Source of the DNA: a bacterium
GTDB lineage: Bacteria > Patescibacteriota > Saccharimonadia > Saccharimonadales > UBA4665
DNA length: 11,692 nt
Assembly (NCBI GenBank): GCA_021804315.1
Contig: JAJZHX010000010.1
Coordinates: 1 to 11,692 of the forward strand
Direction of reading: 5' to 3'
This document shows, one piece after another, positions 411 to 9,145 of this stretch. A program made the translations under genes and the position numbers. How positions within the stretch are numbered: the stretch's first letter is position 1; the number at the start of each line of letters is the position of its first letter. The notes under the pieces are model-generated. The model was not told the origin of the DNA, did not search any database, and saw only the letters and a list, made by a program, of their open reading frames with translations.

Positions 411-540
411 TAGACAAGCATGAGCAGTATTTTGTGGTAGAGTTATTTTTCAAATCAATCTTTTGAGATAAGTTTTAGCTTACCTGCACCAGATGATAAA
501 AGAACACTAGGATATTCGTAAAGTTTTATAGAAAAACTAC
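411..540 (+). repeat. Junction repeat A (ychF 5' relic + L segment)
   Basis: Positions 420-444 are a relic ychF start of the AGC-AGT class (ATG AGC AGT ATT, then TGTGGTAGAGTT with a small deletion). Segment L follows from 445 to about 536. Here L carries several private substitutions and an in-frame TAA in its fossil reading frame, so it is one of the more decayed copies. It has no clear -10 hexamer before the ATG, unlike copies C, F and G. That fits a + strand module upstream that would have supplied transcription. Confidence 0.7.
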
Positions 541-543
541 TCA

Positions 544-973
544 CTAGCTAACAATGCTAAAGTTAAATCGTTGCCTTAATGGATTAAAATCCGTGGAGTC
601 AAATGTTAATAAGCGTCTAATTCCAGCATAGCGTAATGTGGCCAAGGTACTGCAATCAACTAGGCTGATATTCTTAGCTTCCACTTCATTAAAAATATTT
701 AGACTAGCTGTATGTAAGTCTTCGCTTATGTGTATTCGCTTGATATGCTGAGCATCGGATAGGCTATCAGCTACAGACCTAGCTATTGCCTTGCCTGCCC
801 TCCGAGAAAGTATGGTCAGAACTTCAGTCTCAACATAATTCGATATATATAGATTAGTCTCTTCATGAGACAGCTGTTCTGCTATTTTCTTAGCGTCCTC
901 ATGTAGGCTATCCGCAACATTAAAGGTCTATAAAATAGCTAGAGTCTACTATTACTGAATTATTATCTGCCAT
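544..973 (-). pseudogene. Broken PIN-domain toxin (VapC), module 2
   Basis: Reading from the ATG at 973, the protein begins MADNNSVIVDSSYFIDL and then hits TAA. The continuation FNVADSLHEDAKK lies in another frame after a single-base difference near 921-926. From there the frame stays open to the TAG at 544-546, ending RFNFSIVS. The whole length aligns with the intact module 8 toxin (LLTF-D...DFKPLRERFDFSIVS), so this is a decayed paralogue. The first Asp, the Glu in ETEVLTILS, the Asp in SLVDCSTLA and the last Asp survive, split over two frames. The start overlaps the end of the antitoxin pseudogene, as in module 8. The frameshift falls before most catalytic residues, so no active toxin is expected unless it is read through. 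Confidence 0.8.
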
Positions 974-1220
974 ATAAGTATTCATCTAAATTAGAAGCTA
1001 GGTCTTTAGGACCTTCGAAGTTGATTTCTTCCGCAAGTTTAGCCTGAGATAAAAGCCAAGCTCCAGAATTAGTTTTGGCCTCTTTAGCTAATACTTCCGT
1101 ATTAGATTTTTCTTCAACAAGCTACCTGATAACATCAGACATGCTGGTCTTACGCTTTAAAGCCAGTGCCTTAAGCCAGTCAAGTTGTTGTCGTGGTAAA
1201 TAGATTTGCGTACGTTGCAT
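963..1220 (-). pseudogene. Broken ribbon-helix-helix antitoxin (VapB), module 2
   Basis: The ATG at 1220 gives MQRTQIYLPRQQLDW, the beta strand and first helix of a VapB-type DNA-binding antitoxin. Codon 33 is TAG (1122-1124), where the module 8 homologue has Glu. Past it the frame stays open and ends with the family tail GPKDLASNLDEYLYGR, which would wrap around the toxin. The gene therefore has one nonsense mutation plus an otherwise intact frame. The truncated 32-residue product would lack most of the ribbon-helix-helix fold. The operator and promoter upstream remain well formed, so decay may be recent. No sign of stop-codon recoding exists elsewhere in the window. Confidence 0.8.
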
Positions 1221-1227
1221 AACTACC

Positions 1228-1257
1228 CATATACATTATAATGTATACAAAAGTCAA
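1228..1257 (-). promoter_or_regulatory. Promoter and palindromic operator of module 2
   Basis: On the - strand the -35 box TTGACT (1252-1257) and the -10 box TATATG (1228-1233) are 18 nt apart, and the -10 lies 7 nt before the ATG, giving a leaderless transcript. A perfect 18 bp palindrome, TATACATTATAATGTATA (1230-1247), fills the spacer and overlaps the -10. This is the expected place for autorepression by the VapB antitoxin or the VapBC complex. The half-site ATACATT recurs in module 3 and closely in module 8. Confidence 0.7.
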
Positions 1258-1289
1258 GAATTTTGAGTTAATATTTTAGGTGTCTTGAC

Positions 1290-1324
1290 TTGACTTCTAG
1301 CAATGTATGGTATACATTAGATGT
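1290..1324 (+). promoter_or_regulatory. Leaderless promoter and operator of module 3
   Basis: TTGACT (1290-1295), a 17 nt spacer and TACATT (1313-1318) end 6 nt before the ATG at 1325. The operator is a perfect 7 bp inverted repeat, AATGTAT-GGT-ATACATT (1302-1318), covering the spacer and -10. It uses the same half-site as the divergent module 2 operator 55 bp away, so cross-regulation between the two RHH antitoxins is plausible. Confidence 0.7.
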
Positions 1325-1555
1325 ATGTTAAGAACTCAACTTTATCTACCCGAAGACTTACGTCAAGAAATAAATGCAGTTGCACGGCAGGAGAAAAAGC
1401 CCGCAGCAGTAATAATGAGAGAGTTACTGGTAGAGGGTATTAGAAATAAGCATAGAGAAACAACGGGAACAGCCATGAACAGACTAGCCTCTCTAAAAGT
1501 TAAAGGTGGCCCTTCCGATCTTTCTATCAACTTAGACAAATATTTGTACGAGTAA
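1325..1555 (+). CDS. vapB: Ribbon-helix-helix antitoxin (VapB-type), module 3
   Basis: A 76-residue antitoxin beginning MLRTQLYLPEDLRQEI, the usual strand and helix of ribbon-helix-helix VapB proteins that bind DNA as dimers. The second helix follows (AAVIMRELLVEGI), and the C-terminal toxin-neutralising tail ends PSDLSINLDKYLYE. That tail closely resembles those of modules 2 and 8. An upstream in-frame ATG at 1307 would add six residues, but it lies inside the operator and ahead of the predicted transcription start. The leaderless promoter and the conserved (M)xRTQ(L/I)YL start both point to 1325. The stop codon overlaps the toxin ATG by one base (TAATG), indicating coupled translation. Confidence 0.88.
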   Translation: MLRTQLYLPEDLRQEINAVARQEKKPAAVIMRELLVEGIRNKHRETTGTAMNRLASLKVKGGPSDLSINLDKYLYE

Positions 1556-1974
1556 TGGAACCTCCTATTATTGCCGATTCTAGTGGCCTTATATCTCTAG
1601 TTTCAGAGGACGATAGTAATCACAAGCTTGCTCTAAAAGTAGCTAAAGAGTTAAGTGGTTTAAACAGCTTAATAATTGTACCTAGTGACGTCTTTAGTGA
1701 AACCCTAAATGTTATAGGTAAGAAACTTAGTCATCAACTGGCAATTGAGGTAGGTAAAGAGCTGATTAGCTCTAGTGCATATTCAGTTATAGAAGCCGAC
1801 AGTTTACTTAGAGACAGTGCCATTAGTCTATTCAGCAAACAAGCAGAATCTGTTAGTTTTACTGATTGCATAGTGATGGTATTTGCAGATAGTTACAATG
1901 CAGACAATATTTTTGGTTTTGATAAAGTCTTTAAAAATAATGGCTACCGTAGACTAGGTTTTGACGATAGTTAA
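1555..1974 (+). CDS. vapC: PIN-domain toxin (VapC-type), module 3
   Basis: A 139-residue PIN-domain ribonuclease of normal family length. The four acidic positions are visible: Asp8 (PIIADSSGLI), Glu49 (VFSETLNVI), Asp104 (SFTDCIVMVFA) and Asp123 (FGFDKVF). It is expected to be held inactive by the antitoxin translated just before it from the same mRNA. It is a distant relative of the module 2 and 8 toxins (shared SNHK near residue 21). It is one of only two + strand modules, and ends about 13 nt before the relic ychF codons of junction B. Confidence 0.9.
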   Translation: MEPPIIADSSGLISLVSEDDSNHKLALKVAKELSGLNSLIIVPSDVFSETLNVIGKKLSHQLAIEVGKELISSSAYSVIEADSLLRDSAISLFSKQAESVSFTDCIVMVFADSYNADNIFGFDKVFKNNGYRRLGFDDS

Positions 1975-1979
1975 CTTGA

Positions 1980-2115
1980 GGCAATAATCAAGAGCAGTAT
2001 AAGTTGTGGTATAGTTATTTTTCAAACCAACCTTTTGAACTATACTTTATGTTGCCTTAACCTGACGATAAACGTACTCGGGGATATTCGGCTGAGTTTT
2101 ATAGAGAAGTTAAAG
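1980..2115 (+). repeat. Junction repeat B (ychF 5' relic lacking ATG + L segment)
   Basis: Codons AGC AGT ATA AGT TGT GGT ATA GTT (1993-2016) spell SSISCGIV, the ychF N-terminus, with different synonymous codons from the local ychF. Compared with copy A, four bases (CATG) that include the start codon are missing. GAGG at 1978-1981 could have been its Shine-Dalgarno sequence. L runs from 2017 to about 2112. In this copy the bases flanking the join form a good hairpin: GTATAGTT pairs with AACTATAC and CAAA with TTTG. Confidence 0.75.
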
Positions 2116-2128
2116 ACTGCATAACCAT

Positions 2129-2398
2129 TTAGTTGTAAACCTGATTATGGCTACCTACATCCAGAAAAATTATAGCTTCATCAGTTTCTTCATAAACAAC
2201 TCTTACGTCACCAGCTATACTAAAAGCTCTTTTGCCTTGCAGTTTACCCTTCAAGGGGTGGTCGTTGATAGGATAGCCTCGCTTACCACCCTGAAAAGCA
2301 ACAACTCTAGTTCTATAGACAACTTTTAAGTTGTTTATTGGAGACACCCTTTGCTTATAATGTTTTTCAAAATCCTTAGATAAACGAATTGGTTTCAT
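2129..2398 (-). CDS. RelE/YafQ-type mRNA interferase toxin, module 4
   Basis: An 89-residue toxin of the RelE/ParE superfamily, closest in look to YafQ, which cuts mRNA in the ribosomal A site. Visible hallmarks are the N-terminal LSKDFEKHYKQRV helix, the NDHPLKGKL turn with His47, the strand GDVRVVYEE with Asp64, and the C-terminal LDVGSHNQVY carrying His84 and Tyr88. These correspond to catalytic His/Asp positions known in YafQ, though the exact equivalence is my inference. The ATG overlaps the antitoxin stop (ATGA), so translation is coupled. This is the only non-PIN toxin in the array. Confidence 0.88.
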   Translation of the reverse strand: MKPIRLSKDFEKHYKQRVSPINNLKVVYRTRVVAFQGGKRGYPINDHPLKGKLQGKRAFSIAGDVRVVYEETDEAIIFLDVGSHNQVYN

Positions 2399-2682
2399 AT
2401 TTTATCTAGGTGCGCCATCATCTCTTCTACGCTATAGAAAGGTTTGCTAACATTTTTACCTTTCTTAGCTTCTTCTGCGGCCCTGTTAATTCTGTTTGCG
2501 GCAGTAGAACTAGGCTCACCCCAATCATCATTATCAAAACTAAGAACACGGTTATCTGCTTCGGCTTTAGCCCAGACACGAATATACGCCTGTGCTGAAT
2601 CAAAGCCTAGCTTTCTAGCTTTAGCCTCAAGCTTTTCTCTAATAGCTTTGTCCATTGGTATGTGAAGAGTTGTTGTATTCAT
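2395..2682 (-). CDS. RelB/DinJ-like antitoxin, module 4
   Basis: A 95-residue protein upstream of, and overlapping, a YafQ-like toxin. The N-terminal half (TTLHIPMDKAIREKLEAKAR, then GFDSAQAYIRVWAK) fits the strand-helix-helix DNA-binding fold of RelB/DinJ antitoxins. The charged, flexible C-terminal half ends FYSVEEMMAHLDKI, a helix resembling toxin-binding ends in this family. The start is fixed by a leaderless promoter 7 nt upstream. Family naming rests on fold-like features and toxin partner, so it is less sure than the toxin call. Confidence 0.82.
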   Translation of the reverse strand: MNTTTLHIPMDKAIREKLEAKARKLGFDSAQAYIRVWAKAEADNRVLSFDNDDWGEPSSTAANRINRAAEEAKKGKNVSKPFYSVEEMMAHLDKI

Positions 2683-2689
2683 AATTATA

Positions 2690-2718
2690 AGTATATAAAA
2701 GTTATATTATTATGTCAA
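2690..2718 (-). promoter_or_regulatory. Leaderless promoter of module 4
   Basis: On the - strand, a consensus TTGACA (2713-2718), a 17 nt spacer and TATACT (2690-2695) end 7 nt before the ATG. The -10 and start region (TATACTnATAATTATG) nearly duplicate those of module 5, although the two antitoxins are unrelated. Confidence 0.75.
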
Positions 2719-2730
2719 AAATAAACTATG

Positions 2731-2866
2731 TGATCTGTTATAATTCAAGCATGTTTTCATCGGTTTCATGTGATATAGTTATTTTCAAACCAACCTTTTG
2801 AGTTAAGTTTTAGCCTACCAGAACCTGACGATAAAAGAACCAGAGGCTATTCACCAAAGTTTATTG
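2731..2866 (+). repeat. Junction repeat C (ychF promoter + 5' relic + L segment)
   Basis: Positions 2731-2780 match the 50 bases around the real ychF start (7144-7193) at 45 of 50 positions. The match includes the extended -10 (TGTTATAAT), the 6 nt spacer and the ATG at 2751. L follows from 2781 and is the only copy with four T in the T tract at the join. If expressed, the relic start would give a 16-residue peptide, MFSSVSCDIVIFKPTF. Module 5 toxin ends 6 nt past the repeat. Confidence 0.85.
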
Positions 2867-2872
2867 CTTAAC

Positions 2873-3289
2873 TTAAATTAGATTTACTGCAAGTTTAAGT
2901 CCGACTTTTTCATACCAAGAGTCAAAGCTAAATACTGCATCAGCCTTGATGGTCTTAACGGTTGCAGCTACCGTAGCGTCAAACAATGTATTTTGTTTGC
3001 TACCATATGGCTTAAATAAAGTCTCGGCTAGTTCTAGTGTACTTTGGTCAACCGATACTATTTCAAGCTGACTATCACGTATCATTTGAGTTAGCTCGCT
3101 GGTTAAGACAGGGTTGCTAAGCTTTCTTTGTATTGCCGTAACTGCTTCGACAATTGCGGTGGATGGGTACACCAACTTGACTCCTTTATCGTATAGATTT
3201 TGAAGTGTTTCAATAGTTTTTGTGGCTAGCGCGTCATCTTTATTAACCAACGCAATTAGTACATCAGTGTCAACTACTACTGTTTTCAT
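2873..3289 (-). CDS. vapC: PIN-domain toxin (VapC-type), module 5
   Basis: A 138-residue PIN ribonuclease. Asp7 (VVVDTDVLIAL), Glu48 (IVEAVTAIQ), Asp104 (LFDATVAATV) and Asp123 (FSFDSWY) are all present, so the active site looks complete. It pairs with a Phd/YefM-type antitoxin rather than a ribbon-helix-helix protein, a combination known among PIN toxins. It starts 12 nt after the antitoxin stop with no obvious Shine-Dalgarno sequence, so reinitiation or coupling is likely. Its 3' end abuts junction C. Confidence 0.88.
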   Translation of the reverse strand: MKTVVVDTDVLIALVNKDDALATKTIETLQNLYDKGVKLVYPSTAIVEAVTAIQRKLSNPVLTSELTQMIRDSQLEIVSVDQSTLELAETLFKPYGSKQNTLFDATVAATVKTIKADAVFSFDSWYEKVGLKLAVNLI

Positions 3290-3301
3290 AAGATCTAGTT
3301 A

Positions 3302-3583
3302 CTACTTTCCCCACAAGTAATTATCGTGGTTAGTTGCTAAATCTTTAGGCAACTTTTCATCAGTGAAAAGTTTTCTTGCTCTTTCAGAAAAATCTAGCAA
3401 GTTTTTTGCAGAATCTTTATTCTTTAGCCTTTGTAACTCTTCCAAGTCATCCAAGCTTACAATAGCAACCTGAGGCTCTTTGTGGGCCGTAACTATAGCT
3501 GGACGTCTTGTATTCCTGACATCATTAAACACGCTTTTATAATCACGTAGTATATCTCTAGCTGTAACAGTTGTAGTTATCAT
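3302..3583 (-). CDS. Phd/YefM-family antitoxin, module 5
   Basis: A 93-residue antitoxin starting MITTTVTARDILRDYKSVFN. The VTARDxLRDYK start, the RRPAIVTAHKEPQVAIVSLDDLEEL core and the acidic C-terminal tail are the classic Phd/YefM layout: a DNA-binding N-terminus followed by a toxin-blocking tail. The frame is open for 55 codons further upstream, but that part crosses the promoter and a large palindrome. The ATG at 3583 sits exactly 7 nt after a -10 box and gives the family-typical N-terminus, so I chose it. The partner is the PIN toxin immediately downstream. Confidence 0.87.
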   Translation of the reverse strand: MITTTVTARDILRDYKSVFNDVRNTRRPAIVTAHKEPQVAIVSLDDLEELQRLKNKDSAKNLLDFSERARKLFTDEKLPKDLATNHDNYLWGK

Positions 3584-3590
3584 AATTATC

Positions 3591-3619
3591 AGTATATATT
3601 TTGTCAATAATTTTGTCAA
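3591..3619 (-). promoter_or_regulatory. Leaderless promoter of module 5
   Basis: TTGACA (3614-3619), a 17 nt spacer and TATACT (3591-3596) end 7 nt before the ATG at 3583. A second TTGACA lies inside the spacer as part of a direct repeat of TTGACAAAAT, which may be an additional binding site. Confidence 0.78.
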
Positions 3620-3620
3620 T

Positions 3621-3653
3621 ATATATTTTTGACATACTATGTCAAAAATATAT
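3621..3653. promoter_or_regulatory. 33 bp perfect palindrome upstream of module 5 promoter
   Basis: The left arm ATATATTTTTGACATA (3621-3636) and its exact complement TATGTCAAAAATATAT (3638-3653) flank one central base, C3637. It abuts the -35 box of module 5 and itself contains TTGACA in both orientations. It may be an operator for the Phd-type antitoxin or a nearly symmetric second promoter. As an AT-rich 16 bp stem it could also extrude or act at the RNA level. Confidence 0.65.
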
Positions 3654-3671
3654 GCTTCCCATGATATGATT

Positions 3672-3718
3672 AGGAGAAAATAAGCATGAGCAGTATTTCG
3701 TGTTATAAGAGTTGTTAT
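3672..3718 (+). repeat. Junction repeat D, truncated (ychF 5' relic only)
   Basis: ATG AGC AGT ATT TCG TGT (3686-3703) is the ychF start of the AGC-AGT class, with AGGAG at 3672-3676 as a plausible Shine-Dalgarno sequence. After TGT only a scrambled TATAAGAGTTGTTATT remains, and segment L is missing. The next toxin ends 17 nt on. I read this as a junction that lost L by deletion. Confidence 0.6.
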
Positions 3719-3734
3719 TAATATTAGTAATAAG

Positions 3735-4124
3735 TCAGACTTTGGCAATTAGTAGGTCTGGTATTTGCTTAAAATCTGAATCAAGCGTTACAAGCAAATA
3801 ATCATGTTCTAGTGCTAATGCTGCGATCCACATATCATTGCTACCTATAGGCTTGCCTGCTTTTTTAAGTCTTGCATATATTAATCCATATATGGTGGTT
3901 GTTTTGTCGCTAAGCTTGAGTACTCTAACCTGAGGTTTGTCTAGAAATTGCTGTAGGTATTTTTCATTGTAGTCGGTTTTATTGCCAGCAGCAAAACCTG
4001 CCCTGAGTTCCCCAATTACAACAATAGGTATGTAGATGATACTATCCGGTTGAAAATAACTTTTAAGTCTCGGGTCGCCTTTGAAGAACGATGAATACGC
4101 ACTAGTATCAATTATGTAATTCAT
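3735..4124 (-). CDS. vapC: PIN-domain toxin (VapC/FitB-like), module 6
   Basis: A 129-residue PIN ribonuclease with a complete acidic set: Asp6 (NYIIDTSAYSSFF), Glu39 (VVIGELRAGF), Asp97 (IGSNDMWIAALAL) and Asp115 (LVTLDSDF). The IGEL..G and NDxWIAA motifs are textbook VapC/FitB. Two in-frame ATGs exist. The one at 4124 overlaps the antitoxin stop as ATGA and starts right before the first strand; the one at 4130 would add Met-Glu. I prefer 4124, without certainty. Together with the FitA-like antitoxin upstream this is a standard bicistronic VapBC pair, converging on the truncated junction D. Confidence 0.9.
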   Translation of the reverse strand: MNYIIDTSAYSSFFKGDPRLKSYFQPDSIIYIPIVVIGELRAGFAAGNKTDYNEKYLQQFLDKPQVRVLKLSDKTTTIYGLIYARLKKAGKPIGSNDMWIAALALEHDYLLVTLDSDFKQIPDLLIAKV

Positions 4125-4378
4125 TTCCATAATTTTGTATCAGGCCTAGAAAGATCTTTAATAACTTCGTCAAACTCAGAACCCAGACTGTCCTTGCCTG
4201 CACCAAATAACCAATCAAAGCTACTATCTGTTGGCAATTCTGTGGTACCAAATGTTTGCAAGGTTAGTAAATCAACCACCGTCTGGTTAAAAGATTTACC
4301 TGATTGCTTGGAGCGCTTTTTTATAACCATATCAACAGCTGGTGGAATATTTCTAATTGTGTATTGAATACTACTCAT
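4121..4378 (-). CDS. vapB: FitA-like ribbon-helix-helix antitoxin (VapB), module 6
   Basis: An 85-residue antitoxin. SIQYTIRNIPPAVDMVIKKR followed by GKSFNQTVVDLLTL is the strand, helix 1 and helix 2 pattern of FitA/VapB ribbon-helix-helix proteins (TIRNIP...). The rest (FDWLFGAGKD...FDEVIKDLSRPDTKLW) is the toxin-binding tail rich in Asp, Phe and Trp. The start follows a leaderless promoter by 6 nt. The stop overlaps the toxin start, giving strict translational coupling. Confidence 0.88.
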   Translation of the reverse strand: MSSIQYTIRNIPPAVDMVIKKRSKQSGKSFNQTVVDLLTLQTFGTTELPTDSSFDWLFGAGKDSLGSEFDEVIKDLSRPDTKLWK

Positions 4379-4380
4379 AT

Positions 4381-4413
4381 ATACATAGTATGCTATGTAT
4401 GCTTATCTGTCAA
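4381..4413 (-). promoter_or_regulatory. Leaderless promoter and operator of module 6
   Basis: TTGACA (4408-4413), a 17 nt spacer and TACTAT (4385-4390) end 6 nt before the ATG. The perfect inverted repeat ATACATAG-TATG-CTATGTAT (4381-4400) covers the -10, as expected for autorepression. Confidence 0.78.
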
Positions 4414-4458
4414 TAGAGTTTTATGTTAATATTTACAAATGAGATTCGTGGTCGAGTT

Positions 4459-4611
4459 GTGTCCTTACAAATAGGTGTAGTTATTTTTTCAAACCAACCT
4501 TTTAAGTTAAGTTTTAGCCTTCCGGCATCAGATGATAAACGAACTAGAGGTTACTCACCCAAGTTCATAGAAGACTTATTAATATCTAAATCCATTCAGA
4601 TAGCAATTTAG
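4459..4611 (+). repeat. Junction repeat E (MSLQIGVV-type ychF 5' relic fused in frame to L)
   Basis: GTG TCC TTA CAA ATA GGT GTA GTT (4459-4482) reads MSLQIGVV if GTG is the start. This matches the MSLxIGIV N-terminus common in YchF proteins of other bacteria but not the local MSSSVSCGIV. L follows from 4483 to about 4580. The join has six T here, so the relic and L stay in one frame, giving a 50-codon open frame (VSLQIGVVIFSNQPFKLSF... DDKRTRGYSPKF...) ending at 4611. No good promoter or Shine-Dalgarno sequence precedes the GTG. I treat it as a junction repeat and not as a proven gene. Confidence 0.7.
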
Positions 4612-4999
4612 TAGGTATATGTTTATTGGCTTTTTTGGCTAACCTTACGTCGTTAGTTATAAATAAATCGGCCTTACTCTTAATAGCAGTAACGAGATGT
4701 ATCGCGTCGGGAAGTCTTAACCCACCATCATGTTGTAATCTTAGCTCACCAGCTTTCAAACAGACATCGTCATCGCAAGGGGCAGTAGACATATTTCTTA
4801 TTTGCTCAACAAAGTTAGCTAAATCTACTGGTTCCCTACTCTTGCTAACCCCTAACACTTCACCATAAACTAAAGATGAAGATACTGCTTTATACTTTCC
4901 GCTGGCTATATCTCTTATAAGTTTTTGTGCTTGCACGCTATGTTCTTCATGAGGAGATAGGGCTGCAATTAGCACATCACTATCAATTGCAAGTAACAT
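4586..4999 (-). CDS. vapC: PIN-domain toxin (VapC-type), module 7
   Basis: A 137-residue PIN ribonuclease with Asp6 (LLAIDSDVLIAAL), Glu47 (LVYGEVLGV), Asp98 (LRLPDAIHLVTAI) and Asp117 (FITNDVRLAKKA), a full catalytic set. The LPDAIHLATA-like motif and ITND end resemble module 1. It starts 6 nt after the stop of an AbrB-type antitoxin, which marks a PIN-AbrB pair like module 9. Its last codons overlap the open frame running out of junction E by 26 nt, showing how tightly cargo and repeat abut. Confidence 0.9.
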   Translation of the reverse strand: MLLAIDSDVLIAALSPHEEHSVQAQKLIRDIASGKYKAVSSSLVYGEVLGVSKSREPVDLANFVEQIRNMSTAPCDDDVCLKAGELRLQHDGGLRLPDAIHLVTAIKSKADLFITNDVRLAKKANKHIPTKLLSEWI

Positions 5000-5005
5000 A
5001 TAGGC

Positions 5006-5245
5006 CTACCATTCCTCGTCTCGCATATTGCGTAATTCAGATTTGGCATTAATTGGAAATGCGTCACCATACTGACCCAGGAAATCATCTAGGGTTTTAT
5101 CTTTGCGGAAGACTATCTCGTCTTCAGAAACACGTTCAACTCTAAATCGTTGTCCTTCAGGCTTAAACAAGCCTAGTTTCTTTCGAGCCATTTTAGGTAT
5201 GACTACCTGATATTTGCTAGATAGAGTTACTACGTCAGTTTTCAT
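5006..5245 (-). CDS. AbrB/MazE-type (SpoVT-AbrB fold) antitoxin, module 7
   Basis: A 79-residue swapped-hairpin DNA-binding protein. VVTLSSKYQVVIPKMARKKLGL is the AbrB/MazE signature (normally S.KGQ..IP...R..L), followed by RFRVERVSEDEIVFRK as the second hairpin. The C-terminal tail (LDDFLGQYGDAFP...) presumably neutralises the PIN toxin encoded next. The tail ends RNMRDEEW. The start is set by the promoter 6 nt upstream. The usual Gly of KGQ is Tyr here (KYQ), a mild deviation. Confidence 0.88.
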   Translation of the reverse strand: MKTDVVTLSSKYQVVIPKMARKKLGLFKPEGQRFRVERVSEDEIVFRKDKTLDDFLGQYGDAFPINAKSELRNMRDEEW

Positions 5246-5280
5246 AACTACATTGTAGTTTAATGTTAAACAAAAGTCAA
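5246..5280 (-). promoter_or_regulatory. Leaderless promoter and operator of module 7
   Basis: TTGACT (5275-5280), a 17 nt spacer and TACAAT (5252-5257) end 6 nt before the ATG. AACTACA-T-TGTAGTT (5246-5260) is a perfect inverted repeat from start codon to -10, and GTTTAA-TG-TTAAAC (5257-5270) is a second one in the spacer. Both are candidate sites for the AbrB-type antitoxin. Confidence 0.75.
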
Positions 5281-5337
5281 GTGTTATACATTATTATATA
5301 TGTTTAACAAAATACAACTTCCTATTTTCATTTTACT

Positions 5338-5475
5338 TAGTATTTTTTTATGTCTTCATCTGTTTCTTGTAGTATAGTTATTTTTCAAACCAACCCTTTG
5401 AGTTTAGTTTTAGCCTACCTGAACCTGATGACAAGAGAACTGGTGGATATTCACTAGATTTTGTGAACAAATTAC
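5338..5475 (+). repeat. Junction repeat F (ychF promoter + 5' relic + L segment)
   Basis: TAGTAT (5338-5343) lies exactly 6 nt before the ATG at 5350, the same geometry as at ychF. Codons to 5379 read MSSSVSCSIV. L starts at 5380. With five T at the join the ychF frame runs on for a 35-residue peptide ending VDIH at 5457. The fossil L frame (SLPEPDDKRTGGYSLDF) lies in another frame. Module 8 toxin ends 3 nt past the repeat. Confidence 0.8.
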
Positions 5476-5478
5476 AAT

Positions 5479-5910
5479 CTAGCTAACAATACTGAAGTCA
5501 AATCTTTCTCGTAACGGCTTAAAATCGGTAATATCAAAGGTAAGTAATTGCTTTATGCCTACATAATTGAGAACTGCCAGAATACTACAATCAACAACAC
5601 TCATGTTTTTTGTTTGTATCTCACTAAAAATCTCCAAGCTACGGTTATTTAGCTCTTCGTTAATGTGAGTTAATTCAATATTTTCACTATTTAGTAACCT
5701 ATCCCTCACTTCAACTGCAATTTCTCTGTTAACTCTTTGGGACAAGACAGTAAGAACTTCAAGGAGTATATAGTTTGATGTGTATAACTTGGTATCTAGC
5801 TCGGACATACTAACAGCTAGCAGTTGAGCTTTTTTATGATTAGAGTCTGAGGTATTAAAAACTGCTATTAGAAAGTTTGAGTCTAGAAAGACGGCATCTT
5901 TATTGGCCAT
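5479..5910 (-). CDS. vapC: PIN-domain toxin (VapC-type), module 8
   Basis: A 143-residue PIN ribonuclease starting MANKDAVFLDSNFLIAVF. Asp10, Glu51 (ILLEVLTVLS), Asp107 (SVVDCSILAVL) and Asp126 (LLTFDITDF) are present. An upstream ATG at 5922 would add MNIY, but the ATG at 5910 gives the same overlap with the antitoxin (ATGGCCAATAA) and the same N-terminus as the module 2 homologue, so I choose it. This is the intact version of the decayed module 2 toxin, with the C-terminus FSIVS shared exactly. Confidence 0.87.
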   Translation of the reverse strand: MANKDAVFLDSNFLIAVFNTSDSNHKKAQLLAVSMSELDTKLYTSNYILLEVLTVLSQRVNREIAVEVRDRLLNSENIELTHINEELNNRSLEIFSEIQTKNMSVVDCSILAVLNYVGIKQLLTFDITDFKPLRERFDFSIVS

Positions 5911-6163
5911 ATAGATATTCATCCATCTTAGAAGATAGGTCGGCTGGTCCTTTAATTTCTTTCTTTTCTGCCCAAGCTACTTGTGATAAAAGCCACTCTC
6001 CTGCATTAAGATTTTGATTAGCTCTCTTGGCGGAAAAGCTTTTGGCTGTTTTCTCGTCAATTGCCTCACGAATTACGCTAGAAATACTAGTTTTTCTCTT
6101 TAATCCTAGAGCCTTAACGCGATTGTGCTGTTGCTGAGTTAAATAAATTTGCGTCCTTATCAT
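5900..6163 (-). CDS. vapB: Ribbon-helix-helix antitoxin (VapB-type), module 8
   Basis: An 87-residue antitoxin. MIRTQIYLTQQQHNRVKALG plus KTSISSVIREAIDEK gives the ribbon-helix-helix fold. The tail (GEWLLSQVAWAEKKEIKGP..DLSSKMDEYLYGQ) is shared with modules 2 and 3. The stop codon lies inside the first codons of the toxin gene, an 11 nt overlap that couples the two. A leaderless promoter sets the start 7 nt downstream of its -10. Confidence 0.88.
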   Translation of the reverse strand: MIRTQIYLTQQQHNRVKALGLKRKTSISSVIREAIDEKTAKSFSAKRANQNLNAGEWLLSQVAWAEKKEIKGPADLSSKMDEYLYGQ

Positions 6164-6168
6164 AAGGA

Positions 6169-6200
6169 TTAATATACATTATGCTGTATATTAATATCAA
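6169..6200 (-). promoter_or_regulatory. Leaderless promoter and operator of module 8
   Basis: TTGATA (6195-6200), an 18 nt spacer and TATATT (6171-6176) end 7 nt before the ATG. A perfect 10 bp inverted repeat, TTAATATACA-TTATGC-TGTATATTAA (6169-6194), spans the whole spacer and -10. Its core resembles the ATACATT half-sites of modules 2 and 3. Confidence 0.75.
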
Positions 6201-6205
6201 GTGTT

Positions 6206-6350
6206 ATCTGTTAAAATGAACCTATGTCTTCATCTATTTCTTGCGGTATAGTTATTTTTCAAACCAACCTTTTGAACTAAGCTTTAAGTTGCCAGAGCTA
6301 TATGATAAAAGAACTCGTGGGTATTCGCCAGAGTTTATAAAGCGACTACG
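6206..6350 (+). repeat. Junction repeat G (ychF promoter + 5' relic + L segment)
   Basis: ATCTGTTAAAAT with its -10 TAAAAT at 6212-6217 matches the ATCTGTTATAAT of ychF, with the same 6 nt gap to the ATG at 6224. Codons to 6253 read MSSSISCGIV. L runs from 6254 to about 6346. The relic frame would end as an 18-residue peptide at 6280. Between 6351 and 6366 only short spacer remains before the module 9 toxin stop. Confidence 0.82.
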
Positions 6351-6366
6351 CCATGAGTCGCTTGGG

Positions 6367-6765
6367 CTATAATTCGGCGACTATCTTTGGGGCAGTTTCA
6401 GCAAGTTTTTTGTCGAAAGTTAATAGTGGTATAGCATCATTTAACTCAGCATAGGCAGTGAGACAAGCATTAACGAACGAAATCTTTTCGTTAGATACGT
6501 AGAGTGGTATAGCTTTCTCTAACATAGCTTTATTACAGATAATTTGAGGTATATTTGTAAGCCCTAATAATAGTTTACCTATAAGTTGTCTATCAAATTT
6601 ATATGCCTTGCCCGACATAATCCAGACACATTCAAATAATACTGCATCTTCTAGTATTAAACTGTTAGACTTAGACGAATCAATTAGAGTAACTACTCTG
6701 TCCAACTGCTCAGGTACATCTCTAAGTAGTAATCTAAGAGTTATATTGGTATCGAGGCTCTTCAT
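6367..6765 (-). CDS. vapC: PIN-domain toxin (VapC-type) with Asn at a conserved Asp, module 9
   Basis: A 132-residue PIN protein with Asp5 (KSLDTNITLRLLL), Glu45 (VLFECVWIM) and Asp118 (LLTFDKKLAE). At the third acidic position the family usually reads F-x-D-A-L; here it is SFVNACLTAYAEL, with AAT (Asn99) in place of GAT/GAC. One base change would explain it. PIN nucleases normally need this Asp for metal binding, so the toxin may be weakened. The frame and length are otherwise normal. It starts 15 nt after the antitoxin stop with no clear Shine-Dalgarno sequence. It is the module nearest ychF and so the most recent addition under the accretion model. Confidence 0.85.
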   Translation of the reverse strand: MKSLDTNITLRLLLRDVPEQLDRVVTLIDSSKSNSLILEDAVLFECVWIMSGKAYKFDRQLIGKLLLGLTNIPQIICNKAMLEKAIPLYVSNEKISFVNACLTAYAELNDAIPLLTFDKKLAETAPKIVAEL

Positions 6766-6780
6766 AAGCTGCCAGGCCAG

Positions 6781-7074
6781 TTATTTGATATTCCTCAGGT
6801 AATGCTCTGTTGCGCCCTCTTCTGCTGCTTCATTAATAGCATTGTCTAGCTCTTCGTCACTTAAGGGCTTAACTTTGTACTTATTCATATGCGCCGCGGT
6901 TTCTTTATGTAATTCTTCAAGCCTACCCTTCCAGTCGTTCTTTTCAATAACTATCTTGTTATCTTTTTCAACCTTGAAATTTATAGATTCCCCAGGCTTA
7001 ATTTGCATACTACGACGTATGCTAGCAGGAATTGTTACTTGTCCTTTTCTAGTCATAGTAGTGCTATATGTCAT
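6781..7074 (-). CDS. AbrB/MazE-type antitoxin, module 9
   Basis: A 97-residue protein starting MTYSTTMTRKGQVTIPASIRRSM, the canonical KGQVTIP..IR swapped-hairpin motif of AbrB/MazE antitoxins. A second hairpin follows (ESINFKVEKDNKIVIEK), then a long helical tail (LEELHKETAAHMNKY...EELDNAINEAAEEGA) that should bind the PIN toxin. The frame is open about 49 codons further upstream, but that part crosses the promoter and overlaps the divergent ychF start. The ATG at 7074 lies 7 nt after a strong -10 and gives the family-typical start. Confidence 0.87.
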   Translation of the reverse strand: MTYSTTMTRKGQVTIPASIRRSMQIKPGESINFKVEKDNKIVIEKNDWKGRLEELHKETAAHMNKYKVKPLSDEELDNAINEAAEEGATEHYLRNIK

Positions 7075-7081
7075 AGTATGG

Positions 7082-7110
7082 ATATTATCAAAAGTAGTAC
7101 CTATTGTCAA
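7082..7110 (-). promoter_or_regulatory. Leaderless promoter of module 9
   Basis: TTGACA (7105-7110), a 17 nt spacer and TAATAT (7082-7087) end 7 nt before the ATG. CATA-G-TATG (7072-7080) spans the start codon and may be an antitoxin site. The promoter diverges from that of ychF, and about 40 bp separate them. Confidence 0.75.
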
Positions 7111-7148
7111 AGTATTACATTTTATAATTCCATACTGCCAGTTTAATC

Positions 7149-7163
7149 TGTTATAATTCAAGC
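7149..7163 (+). promoter_or_regulatory. Extended -10 leaderless promoter of ychF
   Basis: TG-T-TATAAT (7149-7157) is an extended -10, which compensates for the lack of a good -35. Six bases (TCAAGC) follow before the ATG at 7164, so the mRNA is probably leaderless; no Shine-Dalgarno sequence is present. The same ATCTGTTAwAAT block precedes junction relics C and G. Confidence 0.72.
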
Positions 7164-8246
7164 ATGTCTTCATCAGTTTCGTGTGGTATAGTTGGCCTAC
7201 CAAATGTTGGTAAATCAACACTTTTTAATGCCCTAACTGGCGCTAATGTTTTAGCTGCCAATTATCCTTTTGCAACGATCGAGCCGAATAGTGGCGTTGT
7301 GCCGGTTGATGATAATCGACTAAATAAATTAGCTGAACTTTATAAGACTGACAAAATTGTTCCAGCCACCATTAATTTTGTAGATATTGCTGGTCTTATT
7401 AGTGGCGCTAGTCAGGGTGAAGGTCTAGGTAATCAATTTTTAAGTCATATTAGAAGCGTATCAGTTATTGTACAAGTTGTCAGAGCTTTTGAAGATAATA
7501 ACGTTACTAGACCAAGCGAATTTATCAGTATTAAAAATGATATCGATATTATCGCTACAGAGCTAATATTAGCTGATTTAGTAACTGTTCAAAAGCGACT
7601 TACTAAGTTTGAAAAGGAAGTTAAAGCTAACCCTAAACTAAAGCCAATTTTCCAAGTTTATAAAGCTGTTGAAGCAATTTTACAAAACAATGAGCCACTT
7701 TGGGATCATTTAGAAATAGACCGGACATTGATTGAAGATCTCCACTTACTTACTGCTAAAACTGTTATTTACGTATTTAATATTGATGAAAAGGATTTAA
7801 TGAACGAGCCTAAGAAAACTGTCTTAGCTAGTTTGGTTAAACCAAAAAAAGCTTTGTTTATTTGCGCCAAACTGGAAAGCGAACTAAACTCACTCGATCA
7901 AGATGATGCTCTGGAATTACTAGCGAGTTATCAGCAAAACGAATCAGGCTTAAGTCAGCTAACTCGTGTCGCTTATCAAGAGCTAGGCTTACAAAGTTTT
8001 CTAACCGCTGGAGAAAAGGAAGTAAGGGCTTGGACAATCAAAAAAGCTAGTAGCGCTAAACAAGCTGCTGGAGTGATTCATAAAGATTTTGAAAAAGGTT
8101 TTATTGCTGCCGAAATTGTTAAATATTCTGATTTAGTTAATTCAGGCTCGTTGCAACAAGCCAAAGCTAAAGGATTAGTCAAAACAGAAGGCAAAGACTA
8201 TATTATGGAAGAAGACGACGTAGTTTTATTCCGATTTAATGTTTAG
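7164..8246 (+). CDS. ychF: Ribosome-associated GTPase/ATPase YchF (OLA1 family)
   Basis: A 360-residue protein of full family length (about 363). It has the P-loop GLPNVGKS (residues 11-18), switch region ANYPFATIEPN, G3 DIAGL (74-78), NIDE (206-209) in place of NKxD, and a C-terminal TGS domain (about 275-358) ending EEDDVVLFRFNV. The NxxE in place of NKxD is the family feature linked to ATP use. YchF binds ribosomes and affects leaderless mRNA translation in E. coli, which is interesting because most genes here look leaderless. Its first ten codons (MSSSVSCGIV) and promoter are the sequence copied at the junctions between the TA modules upstream. Its 3' end converges on the next gene with a 2 nt gap. 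Confidence 0.96.
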   Translation: MSSSVSCGIVGLPNVGKSTLFNALTGANVLAANYPFATIEPNSGVVPVDDNRLNKLAELYKTDKIVPATINFVDIAGLISGASQGEGLGNQFLSHIRSVSVIVQVVRAFEDNNVTRPSEFISIKNDIDIIATELILADLVTVQKRLTKFEKEVKANPKLKPIFQVYKAVEAILQNNEPLWDHLEIDRTLIEDLHLLTAKTVIYVFNIDEKDLMNEPKKTVLASLVKPKKALFICAKLESELNSLDQDDALELLASYQQNESGLSQLTRVAYQELGLQSFLTAGEKEVRAWTIKKASSAKQAAGVIHKDFEKGFIAAEIVKYSDLVNSGSLQQAKAKGLVKTEGKDYIMEEDDVVLFRFNV

Positions 8247-8248
8247 AC

Positions 8249-9145
8249 CTAGAGCTTGACTACTGTACTAATTGCCCGATTTAAAACAGGCGTTTTGGAA
8301 AAACGTCGCCGTCTAAGAGCTAAGGGTAATTTGGAGTAGGCTATTTGTGTTGGAGTTGGATGTAGTGGGATAGGTTTAGCAAGGTTATTATAAACTTGAG
8401 ACAATTGTGTTTGGCTATTATTAAAGATTTCCTTCACCCCTTCGTTATAAATATCTTGAGAAATTTTTTCTTGTTCAGAAAGATTAACGGCTTTAGCTGT
8501 TTGCATTTCTTCAGACTCAAGATCAATATTATGCCGTTGGTTATAATCCTTAATCAAGCTCTTAGCATATAAATAATCAGCAAGTTCGTGGCTAGGTCTT
8601 GGTGGTTCTGGAATAGATAAATTGTTGTTTTTCGAGTAAATAGCTTTTTGTAGTTCAGCCTGATACTGTTGCTGAGATAAAAGGTAAGCTTGTAATTGAA
8701 AATTTATCTGTTCTAGATGAGATACTTGAGAGTCTTGATGATCAAACTGCTTCCTTTTATTGGCAGCTATTTTATGCTGTACATGGCCAATTAATTTTCT
8801 TAGTCTTGGCTTATTATAACTTCTAAAATGTAGGTTTTTTTCTCCAGAACTAATACTAATTTCCGCACCTATCAGTCGATGACTATAGTCTATTTCACTA
8901 ATCATGTCATAGCGCATATCCTCAACAGTTAAGTAATGAAGAGGCTTTTTATCTATTAAAAGTACTCTGATGTCGGTGGCGACTAGCAAAGCAAAACCGC
9001 CATCATAAATACCGTTAACCGCTTCAAAGATTTCCTCTTCTGGCAAAATAACATCAGGTAGCTCAGATGCTTCACTTCTACCCCACCCCTGATAATTAAA
9101 CTTGATCAACTTAAGTTGCCTAAGTATTTCTTTTTTGTCTACCAT
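8249..9145 (-). CDS. YokE-type PH-domain protein with glutamine-rich helical tail
   Basis: A 298-residue protein. Residues about 35-125 look like a bacterial YokE-like PH domain: EEEIFEAVNGIYDGG, then LLVATDIRVLLIDKK, SEIDYSHRLIGAEISI and HFRSYN, the alternating strands that end in a helix (KLIGHVQHKI). Residues about 130-230 are Gln/Lys/Glu-rich and probably coiled coil. The basic C-terminus reads LALRRRRFSK. No signal peptide or membrane segment is visible, so it is likely cytoplasmic. Function is unknown; such PH domains often bind membranes or proteins. Unlike its neighbours it has a strong Shine-Dalgarno sequence. It converges on ychF with no room for a terminator between them. Confidence 0.8.
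   Translation of the reverse strand: MVDKKEILRQLKLIKFNYQGWGRSEASELPDVILPEEEIFEAVNGIYDGGFALLVATDIRVLLIDKKPLHYLTVEDMRYDMISEIDYSHRLIGAEISISSGEKNLHFRSYNKPRLRKLIGHVQHKIAANKRKQFDHQDSQVSHLEQINFQLQAYLLSQQQYQAELQKAIYSKNNNLSIPEPPRPSHELADYLYAKSLIKDYNQRHNIDLESEEMQTAKAVNLSEQEKISQDIYNEGVKEIFNNSQTQLSQVYNNLAKPIPLHPTPTQIAYSKLPLALRRRRFSKTPVLNRAISTVVKL

Follow-up and report, generated by a model that had tools for sequence, protein, structure and literature searches.

A toxin–antitoxin array at the ychF start of a Saccharimonadales genome and its probable origin in large serine recombinase elements

Introduction

How does a row of toxin–antitoxin (TA) modules come to stand before a conserved GTPase gene, with copies of that gene's own start set between the modules? 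The question is raised by contig JAJZHX010000010.1 of a Saccharimonadales genome (assembly GCA_021804315.1; contig C95 of genome G000 in our numbering), an 11,692-nt stretch hereafter called the window, the left 7.1 kb of which is an array of TA modules leading up to ychF, the gene for a YchF-type GTPase. Comparison with related genomes indicates that the conserved segment following each copy of the ychF start, here called L, probably represents the final ~35 codons of a gene for a large serine recombinase (LSR), and that the joints between start copies and L probably share this LSR origin.

Results

A profile search placed six joints of a ychF-start copy with L in the window, at 418–540, 1988–2112, 2752–2871, 4460–4578, 5350–5474 and 6224–6348 (E 1.7e-28 to 6.6e-34, the match following by construction from a profile built on these same copies), and an ungapped repeat finder recovered the family without the profile, which also matched the true ychF start at 7164 weakly (E 0.007). 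All lie on the plus strand, as a first-pass annotation of this DNA had it. The junctions extend over 414–540 (A, GG core at 436–437), 1986–2112 (B, GG core at 2008–2009), 2733–2871 (C, which includes a −10-like box and has GA at the core, 2772–2773), 4436–4578 (D, whose start copy, VSLQIGVV, is of the type seen in genome G062), 5332–5483 (E, core AG at 5371–5372) and 6206–6349 (F, GG core at 6245–6246). Six of the seven junctions originally claimed are thus borne out, and the seventh fits a plus-strand remnant at 3682–3705, 92% identical to 416–439 by the ungapped repeat finder, which holds ychF-start-like DNA without L. In the related G062 locus (L157), L at 2358–2462 precedes a cassette homologous to the one behind this remnant. 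The putative insertion target, ychF, occupies 7164–8246 on the plus strand (YchF-GTPase_C E 1.2e-35, MMR_HSR1 E 3e-23); its current start (7146–7193, plus strand), presumably delivered by the last cassette, carries TGTTATAAT 6 nt before the ATG and a GG core at 7185–7186, as read from the sequence, the repeat finder and pair alignments. The start region of junction C is 92% identical to it (2733–2780 against 7146–7193), close to the 45 of 50 bases first reported. The array continues past the contig start, where a PIN-type toxin is truncated (2–412); DNA and protein searches of the assembled part of the genome returned no further copies of L outside the window.

L holds an open frame, shifted +2 relative to ychF, and many copies end in a stop codon. 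At locus L106 (genome G056; 12290–12511) a recombinase-like C-terminus and the L peptide are encoded in a single open frame that passes across the core; in G020 (L161, 1–270) an LSR frame crosses the joint into L up to the stop, with a second LSR C-terminus at ychF; and at L113 a relic of a recombinase C-terminus reads directly into the ychF start. In the G067 element, a 550-aa LSR overlaps the ychF start with its 3′ end and is preceded, in order, by L, a Shedu-type gene with both SduA domains (N and C) and an HTH_17 gene. G088 fits L, an HTH_17-like gene, LSR and ychF into 7.7 kb, and G023 shows the last three of these, the left end of its element falling outside the contig (HTH_17 in the latter two was called by similarity, family f17). 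The LSR of locus L149 matches PF00239 (1.1e-26) and PF07508 (2.6e-16), with PF13408 just under the cut-off at 1e-4. Elements with attL on one side and attR on the other, within a single target site, were found in G067 and G088 and, in other families, in G425, G215, G392 and, weakly, G384.

The same arrangement extends beyond the family. Among the best 120 LSR homologues (drawn from 602 with E ≤ 1e-20, out of 8000 candidates scored), 105 have the ychF P-loop, read out of frame, as their C-terminal end, compared with none of 2400 shuffled tails and none of 120 in the single alternative frame tried. A phylum sample yielded LSR homologues (E ≤ 1e-15) in 25 of 379 genomes, at 26 places; ychF lies directly downstream at 15 of these, in nine families, and none was found within the ≤1.5 kb available on each side at the remaining 11. 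The L tail was detected ~9–12 kb upstream of ychF in four of the eight LSR–ychF genomes searched (G425, G215, G392 and, weakly, G384), and five of seven joints inspected in other families are preceded by sequence readable as a ychF start. As to cargo, a Shedu (SduA) defence-type gene lies in the LSR element at L149 (6315–7286), and LSR elements at ychF in L230–L233, of other families, carry genes that by eye resemble those of macro-domain, GIY-YIG and AAA proteins.

Substitutions in L number 154/128/265 at the three codon positions (parsimony, 32 copies), or 3957/3339/6055 pairwise (35 copies), a third-position excess suggesting that L has recently passed through a coding state, as continual renewal from LSR genes would lead one to expect; several copies in the window carry stops or an altered T-run. 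Because of this coding signal, L is less likely to be a structural RNA or an attC-like hairpin, and its interpretation as an independent small protein was set aside, L fitting as a separated LSR tail. Comparison also supports an attP inside the LSR's own gene, as in suicidal integrases, such that integration would cut off the LSR tail and alter the gene.

The first-pass annotation had placed the recombinase outside the window, which holds for the intact LSR gene, present in relatives, but not for its tail, which is probably segment L itself. A genome-wide check of the assembly (581 kb, 59% complete) turned up no LSR of the ychF family; two other recombinase-family genes are present, at G000:C94:10189–10506 and G000:C32:2386–2604 (in frames of 575 and 476 aa), neither of which the ychF-type LSR query recovered. 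The nearest named relatives by ychF are Candidatus Saccharibacteria metagenome-assembled genomes, and the best LSR match bears the same name. An LSR search of IMG/VR gave one pattern match and no relative.

To place the strand exchange, 34 locus pairs sharing the ychF-proximal unit were considered, and nine of them, chosen for the most alike upstream ends and including three LSR elements, were aligned at base level. In these nine, 32–35 of the 36 bases upstream of the Gly codon agree, as do 28–33 of 42 from that codon onward; counted from the first G, exact identity lasts 2–5 nt in eight pairs, against 14 nt in G067/G088. An LSR-derived arm, GGTTGGKTTR (at least 8 of 10 positions), here the P arm, stands 13 nt before the GG at 15 of 20 ML-type ychF starts and at none of 21 SC-type or 35 other starts. 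Symmetry of the arms, scored in three joints (G020, G056 and G027; a fourth, G031, was left out), is 9 of 10 about the GG in G020, where every other axis gives at most 5 and none of 2000 shuffles does as well. With the GG fitting both the end of identity in the nine pairs and the fixed distance of the arm motif, the Gly-codon GG of GIVGLPNVGKS is the most plausible crossover point, the best single placement rather than a proven one. The first-pass annotation had put the join at GGT-ATA-GTT, after Gly-Ile-Val; in the pairs with the most similar cassettes the boundary instead falls at the GG, 7 nt earlier. L opens with TATAGTTA, and GGTATAGTT is thus common to L and the ychF start. Weighing against this placement, many of the 34 pairs are too dissimilar upstream for any drop to show, the YafQ pair of G047/G054 shows no identity drop at the core and G045/G061b a mild one only, the arm is missing at 5 of the 20 ML-type starts, with G062 and G041 matching one nt off register, and symmetry about the GG in the G056 and G027 joints is 6 of 10 (68 and 43 of 2000 shuffles), equalled by other axes.

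How regularly ychF is the landing site was judged with a natural open reading frame (ORF) spanning a distal window joint, searched against 93 genomes of the family, as part of the loci had been chosen for having L. The search gave 49 matches in 30 genomes, and 47 lie on the ychF contig in the orientation of ychF, upstream of or overlapping its start; the two exceptions are G082:C12 and G003:C59. A ychF match was present in 84 of the 93 genomes, and 82 loci were taken (G061 has two, and the partial ychF matches of G065, G057 and G070 were left out). The P-loop could be placed in 78, four being dropped as off pattern (L266, L278, L288 and L289). Upstream of ychF in these 78, whose upstream length varies (L272 and L296 begin at ychF and so show none), L was found at 35, LSR sequence, intact or relic, at 15 and either at 41, or 44 with the P arm motif added; the L-peptide matches, also 78 in number, come from two query peptides and count some places twice. 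Loci with no detected L, with one and with several all occur. A TGTTAnnAT-like −10 element stands shortly before the start codon at 28 of 76 ychF starts, 6–8 nt before it in 25 of the 28. A ychF scan of general genome contigs returned mostly Actinobacteria.

Several loci depart from the common form. Genome G061 has two ychF genes in one bin (C8:21656–22732 and C47:4602–5684), each with TA cassettes upstream, which may be a second copy or a mixed bin. At L110 (2323–3465) an AAA_14/DUF4143 ATPase gene lies as cargo between two L joints in place of a TA module, and at L111 (1330–2167) the right end of a TA unit enters a methyltransferase-like ORF (by eye) rather than ychF, with a −10-like box just before the ATG.

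The same TA pairs recur in permuted order among loci. The YafQ pair precedes the Phd/PIN pair in the window, follows it in G054, precedes other pairs in G056 and G061, and in G047 stands next to ychF, behind an ATPase gene. Across 159 pairs of shared array-region ORFs (all ORFs there, TA genes and others), 120 are more alike than the respective ychF genes, 80 of them by more than 10 points, and in the 40 widest gaps the ORFs share 74–99% and ychF 48–68% protein identity. As ychF is a conserved gene, vertical descent would yield the opposite pattern, although the 39 pairs not more alike than ychF count against movement. Over 760 nt, the FitAB cassettes of the window and of G062 (L157) share 87.6% DNA identity through the core inclusive, the homology stopping at 4475, on the GG core (4474–4475); the toxins share 90.8% and the antitoxins 90.6% amino acid identity, ychF 57.3% protein identity, and the window cassette bears a G062-type ychF start. 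The loci of relatives and their permuted cassettes thus support the layout first proposed, in which units of the form L–TA–ychF 5′ end insert at the ychF start, replace the 5′ end of the gene and build up serially.

Comparison supports a mechanism of integration at the ychF start, by which an LSR element comes to have L at its left end and a renewed ychF start at its right. The ychF start would act as attB, with the GG of the Gly codon as central dinucleotide, and attP would lie in the LSR gene, ~35 codons short of its stop, at a point where the same DNA also encodes a ychF start in a different frame. After integration the left end would show the old ychF start followed by the LSR tail (L, the P′ arm), while the right end of the element would supply ychF with a new start and the LSR would end in out-of-frame ychF codons. 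LSR-less TA units share their left end with LSR elements, and the TA cassettes would be LSR-less relatives of these elements, of the form L–TA–ychF start; since such units leave a ychF start that can be targeted again, they would accumulate. Most likely, we infer, the TA units travel with an adjacent LSR element and stay after its precise excision (cis-mobilisation): a composite would excise from the distal joint and integrate elsewhere, whereupon the LSR element would leave precisely and the TA unit remain with a fresh ychF start. This route is preferred over direct insertion of TA circles because it needs canonical reactions only, and the TA cargo should make the unit hard to lose. In G052 an old LSR tail is followed by L, the Phd/PIN pair and an SC-type ychF start, then by a decayed L, an LSR relic and an ML-type ychF; here an LSR element seems to have landed on the start brought by a TA cassette.

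Several points weigh against this account. The predicted composite was met once, in G052, where the LSR is a relic, the match to L is weak (nhmmer E 0.041, peptide E 0.19) and the reading is partly by eye. The LSR query found no recombinase of this family in the window's own genome, as far as that 59% complete assembly goes. The P arm is missing at most right ends of TA cassettes (none of 21 SC-type starts has it), and such units alone would therefore be attL-like and would not be inserted by a canonical attP × attB reaction. A P-like arm lies left of L in 12 of 53 joints (one-nt shift allowed; 25 of the 53 were untyped), which is not a canonical product and is unexplained by cis-mobilisation. 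Finally, all the evidence on the mechanism is comparative, recombination itself not having been observed.

Other routes were weighed against the same observations. The site of unit insertion is supported, but direct insertion of each cassette as a circle, as first proposed, is one possible route only, most right ends being without a P arm. By such trans mobilisation the LSR would excise each L–TA–ychF-start unit as a circle and insert it at ychF, somewhat as integron cassettes move, which would suit the small units of one TA pair, the permuted orders and the single-unit loci, as well as the FitAB cassette (G062, junction D of the window), whose right arm is still P-like, though shifted by one nt. 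With the P motif missing at most right ends, however, such a circle would be attL-like, a form that LSRs normally use poorly, and no circle was seen, none having been sought; we consider this route possible but somewhat unlikely. Less probable in our view is that the array consists of leftovers of whole LSR islands that integrated serially and lost the LSR in place, the TA genes being kept as their loss is costly and the cassettes being immobile. Such leftovers are suggested by the LSR sequence at 15 of the 78 loci, by the order L–same TA–LSR relic in G037 and also G009 (a weak LSR match), by the decayed module at 544–1250 and by the FitAB units of G053 and G062, whose right ends differ. Yet the same LSR-less unit occurs in different genera, more alike than ychF, and some pairs have alike right ends up to the core, where independent deletions would give different ends.

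Homologous recombination after DNA uptake, with the repeated ychF starts and L as homology and no recombinase, is a very improbable source of the array. Natural DNA uptake is known in this bacterial group, and both sequences are indeed repeated, but identity falls at the core in the nine base-aligned pairs, the point that LSR elements also use, and with this drop homologous recombination was set aside as the main route. Tandem duplication of the ychF 5′ end or an assembly artefact, which the similarity of the copies within the window might suggest, is hardly credible, since start types vary among joints and match the types of other genomes, and such joints occur in many separately assembled genomes.

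Domain scans bear out the TA modules between the junctions, in either orientation. Toxins with open frames are six PIN-domain proteins and one of YafQ type, and the antitoxins include Phd, FitA-like and MazE types, with three candidates lacking a Pfam match; most modules are on the minus strand, the exceptions, on the plus strand, being a single pair and the toxin truncated at the contig start. That toxin (1–412, plus) is PIN-type (VapC-like), the cargo of a further distal cassette, and resembles the L106 toxin (78% amino acid identity by tblastn over residues 8–144; 78% DNA identity to L106). Behind it, 544–1250 (minus) is a decayed VapBC-type module related to the cassette at 5479–6163 (tblastn amino acid identity 53% for the toxin and 54% for the antitoxin). 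The plus-strand pair, 1307–1974, joins an 82-aa antitoxin candidate (1307–1555, no Pfam match) to a PIN toxin (1555–1974, E 1.3e-10). The rest are on the minus strand. The YafQ-type toxin at 2129–2398 (YafQ_toxin E 1.1e-10) and its presumed antitoxin at 2395–2682 (no Pfam match), together 2129–2682, recur in L106, L107, L110 and L114, while the PIN toxin at 2873–3289 (E 1.7e-11) and Phd-type antitoxin at 3302–3583 (PhdYeFM E 6.5e-8) of the module at 2873–3583 belong to families f1/f2, each present in 11 loci. The FitAB-like cassette (3717–4475) has a PIN toxin (3735–4130), a FitA-like antitoxin (4121–4378, its match under the curated cut-off) and its own ychF start. It is followed at 4586–5245 by a PIN toxin (4586–4999, E 7.9e-15) with a MazE-like antitoxin (5006–5245, MazE E 7e-4, under the curated cut-off), at 5479–6163 by a PIN toxin (5479–5922, E 5.6e-13) with an antitoxin candidate lacking a Pfam match (5900–6163), the module being 85.5% identical in DNA to L105, and at 6367–7074 by a PIN toxin (6367–6765, E 2.9e-5) with a MazE/PrlF-type antitoxin (6781–7074, MazE E 8.2e-12). 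The claim that decay is mostly distal has a thin basis: the module at 544–1250 is decayed, yet the partial toxin farthest from ychF keeps an open frame over the part present.

The right half of the window carries ychF, a bacterial-PH-domain gene, a Crp-type regulator, a phosphoribosyltransferase, an FtsJ-type methyltransferase and elongation factor P. The PH-domain gene (8249–9145) is convergent with ychF, and a similar-looking ORF stands at its position in ten array loci with ychF.

Discussion

Gene gain in Patescibacteria is poorly understood, and for Saccharibacteria and other members of the phylum the comparison points to a recombinase family and its insertion site as a route of gene flow. 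TA modules would serve here as single array cassettes, each unit renewing the start of a conserved GTPase gene, and the LSR clade could serve as genome tools. A further reading, which we regard as doubtful, sees a bacterial cassette platform unrelated to integrons, with ychF as fixed landing site, a self-splitting LSR as engine, and the L of each cassette marking the joint and, where it comes to lie behind a resident LSR, restoring the full C-terminus of that LSR; if true, array growth would feed back on recombinase activity.

Integrons are arrays of small one-module cassettes with one growing end, in which TA modules are common; the joints of the ychF array, by contrast, look like LSR sites, and its target is a housekeeping gene. 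For phage Mx8, whose integrase is of the tyrosine type, we know of no cassette array. A pneumococcal satellite prophage is described as integrating upstream of ychF. In Mx8, attP lies inside int, and the integrase gene acquires a different 3′ end and altered properties on integration (PMC6070905); the ychF LSR would likewise gain a new 3′ end, whereas Mx8 has a phage integrase and does not insert at ychF. Archaeal suicidal (SSV1-type) tyrosine integrases have the target site in the integrase gene, which is split on integration, and the review passages cited describe them as exclusive to archaea (PMC8371274). The ychF case differs in having a bacterial serine recombinase from which only ~35 C-terminal codons would be cut off, and comparison would thus extend attP-in-gene integration to a bacterial serine recombinase.

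In the accretion of integrative and conjugative or mobilizable elements, cis-mobilizable elements (CIMEs) keep their att sites without a recombinase and build up in tandem at one site, and tandem transfer is reported in the sections consulted (PMC5704250). CIMEs retain attL and attR, whereas the TA units, judged by the same measure, have an attL-like left joint and mostly finish, on the right, with a new ychF start that has no P arm; they are also ~1 kb or less and hold mostly one TA pair. The ssrA-specific islands of Dehalococcoides, as described in the text consulted, use a CcrB-related serine recombinase and a single-copy target gene and form tandem islands with recombinase-less neighbours proposed to be cis-mobilised (PMC3146451), and the ychF array resembles them in its serine recombinase, single target gene, tandem build-up and recombinase-less neighbours. 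Their target is an RNA gene, at its 3′ side, and an attP within the recombinase gene and TA-only units are absent from that same text. The first-pass annotation knew of no described element family with this layout; a close known kind does exist in such tandem accretion of serine-recombinase islands and cis-mobilizable elements, while the searches made of open PMC papers brought up no example of the exact combination, in which an LSR with attP in its own 3′ end lands at the ychF 5′ end and small TA units renew the target. On sequence comparison, the ychF array would be tandem island accretion in a form that combines known parts newly.

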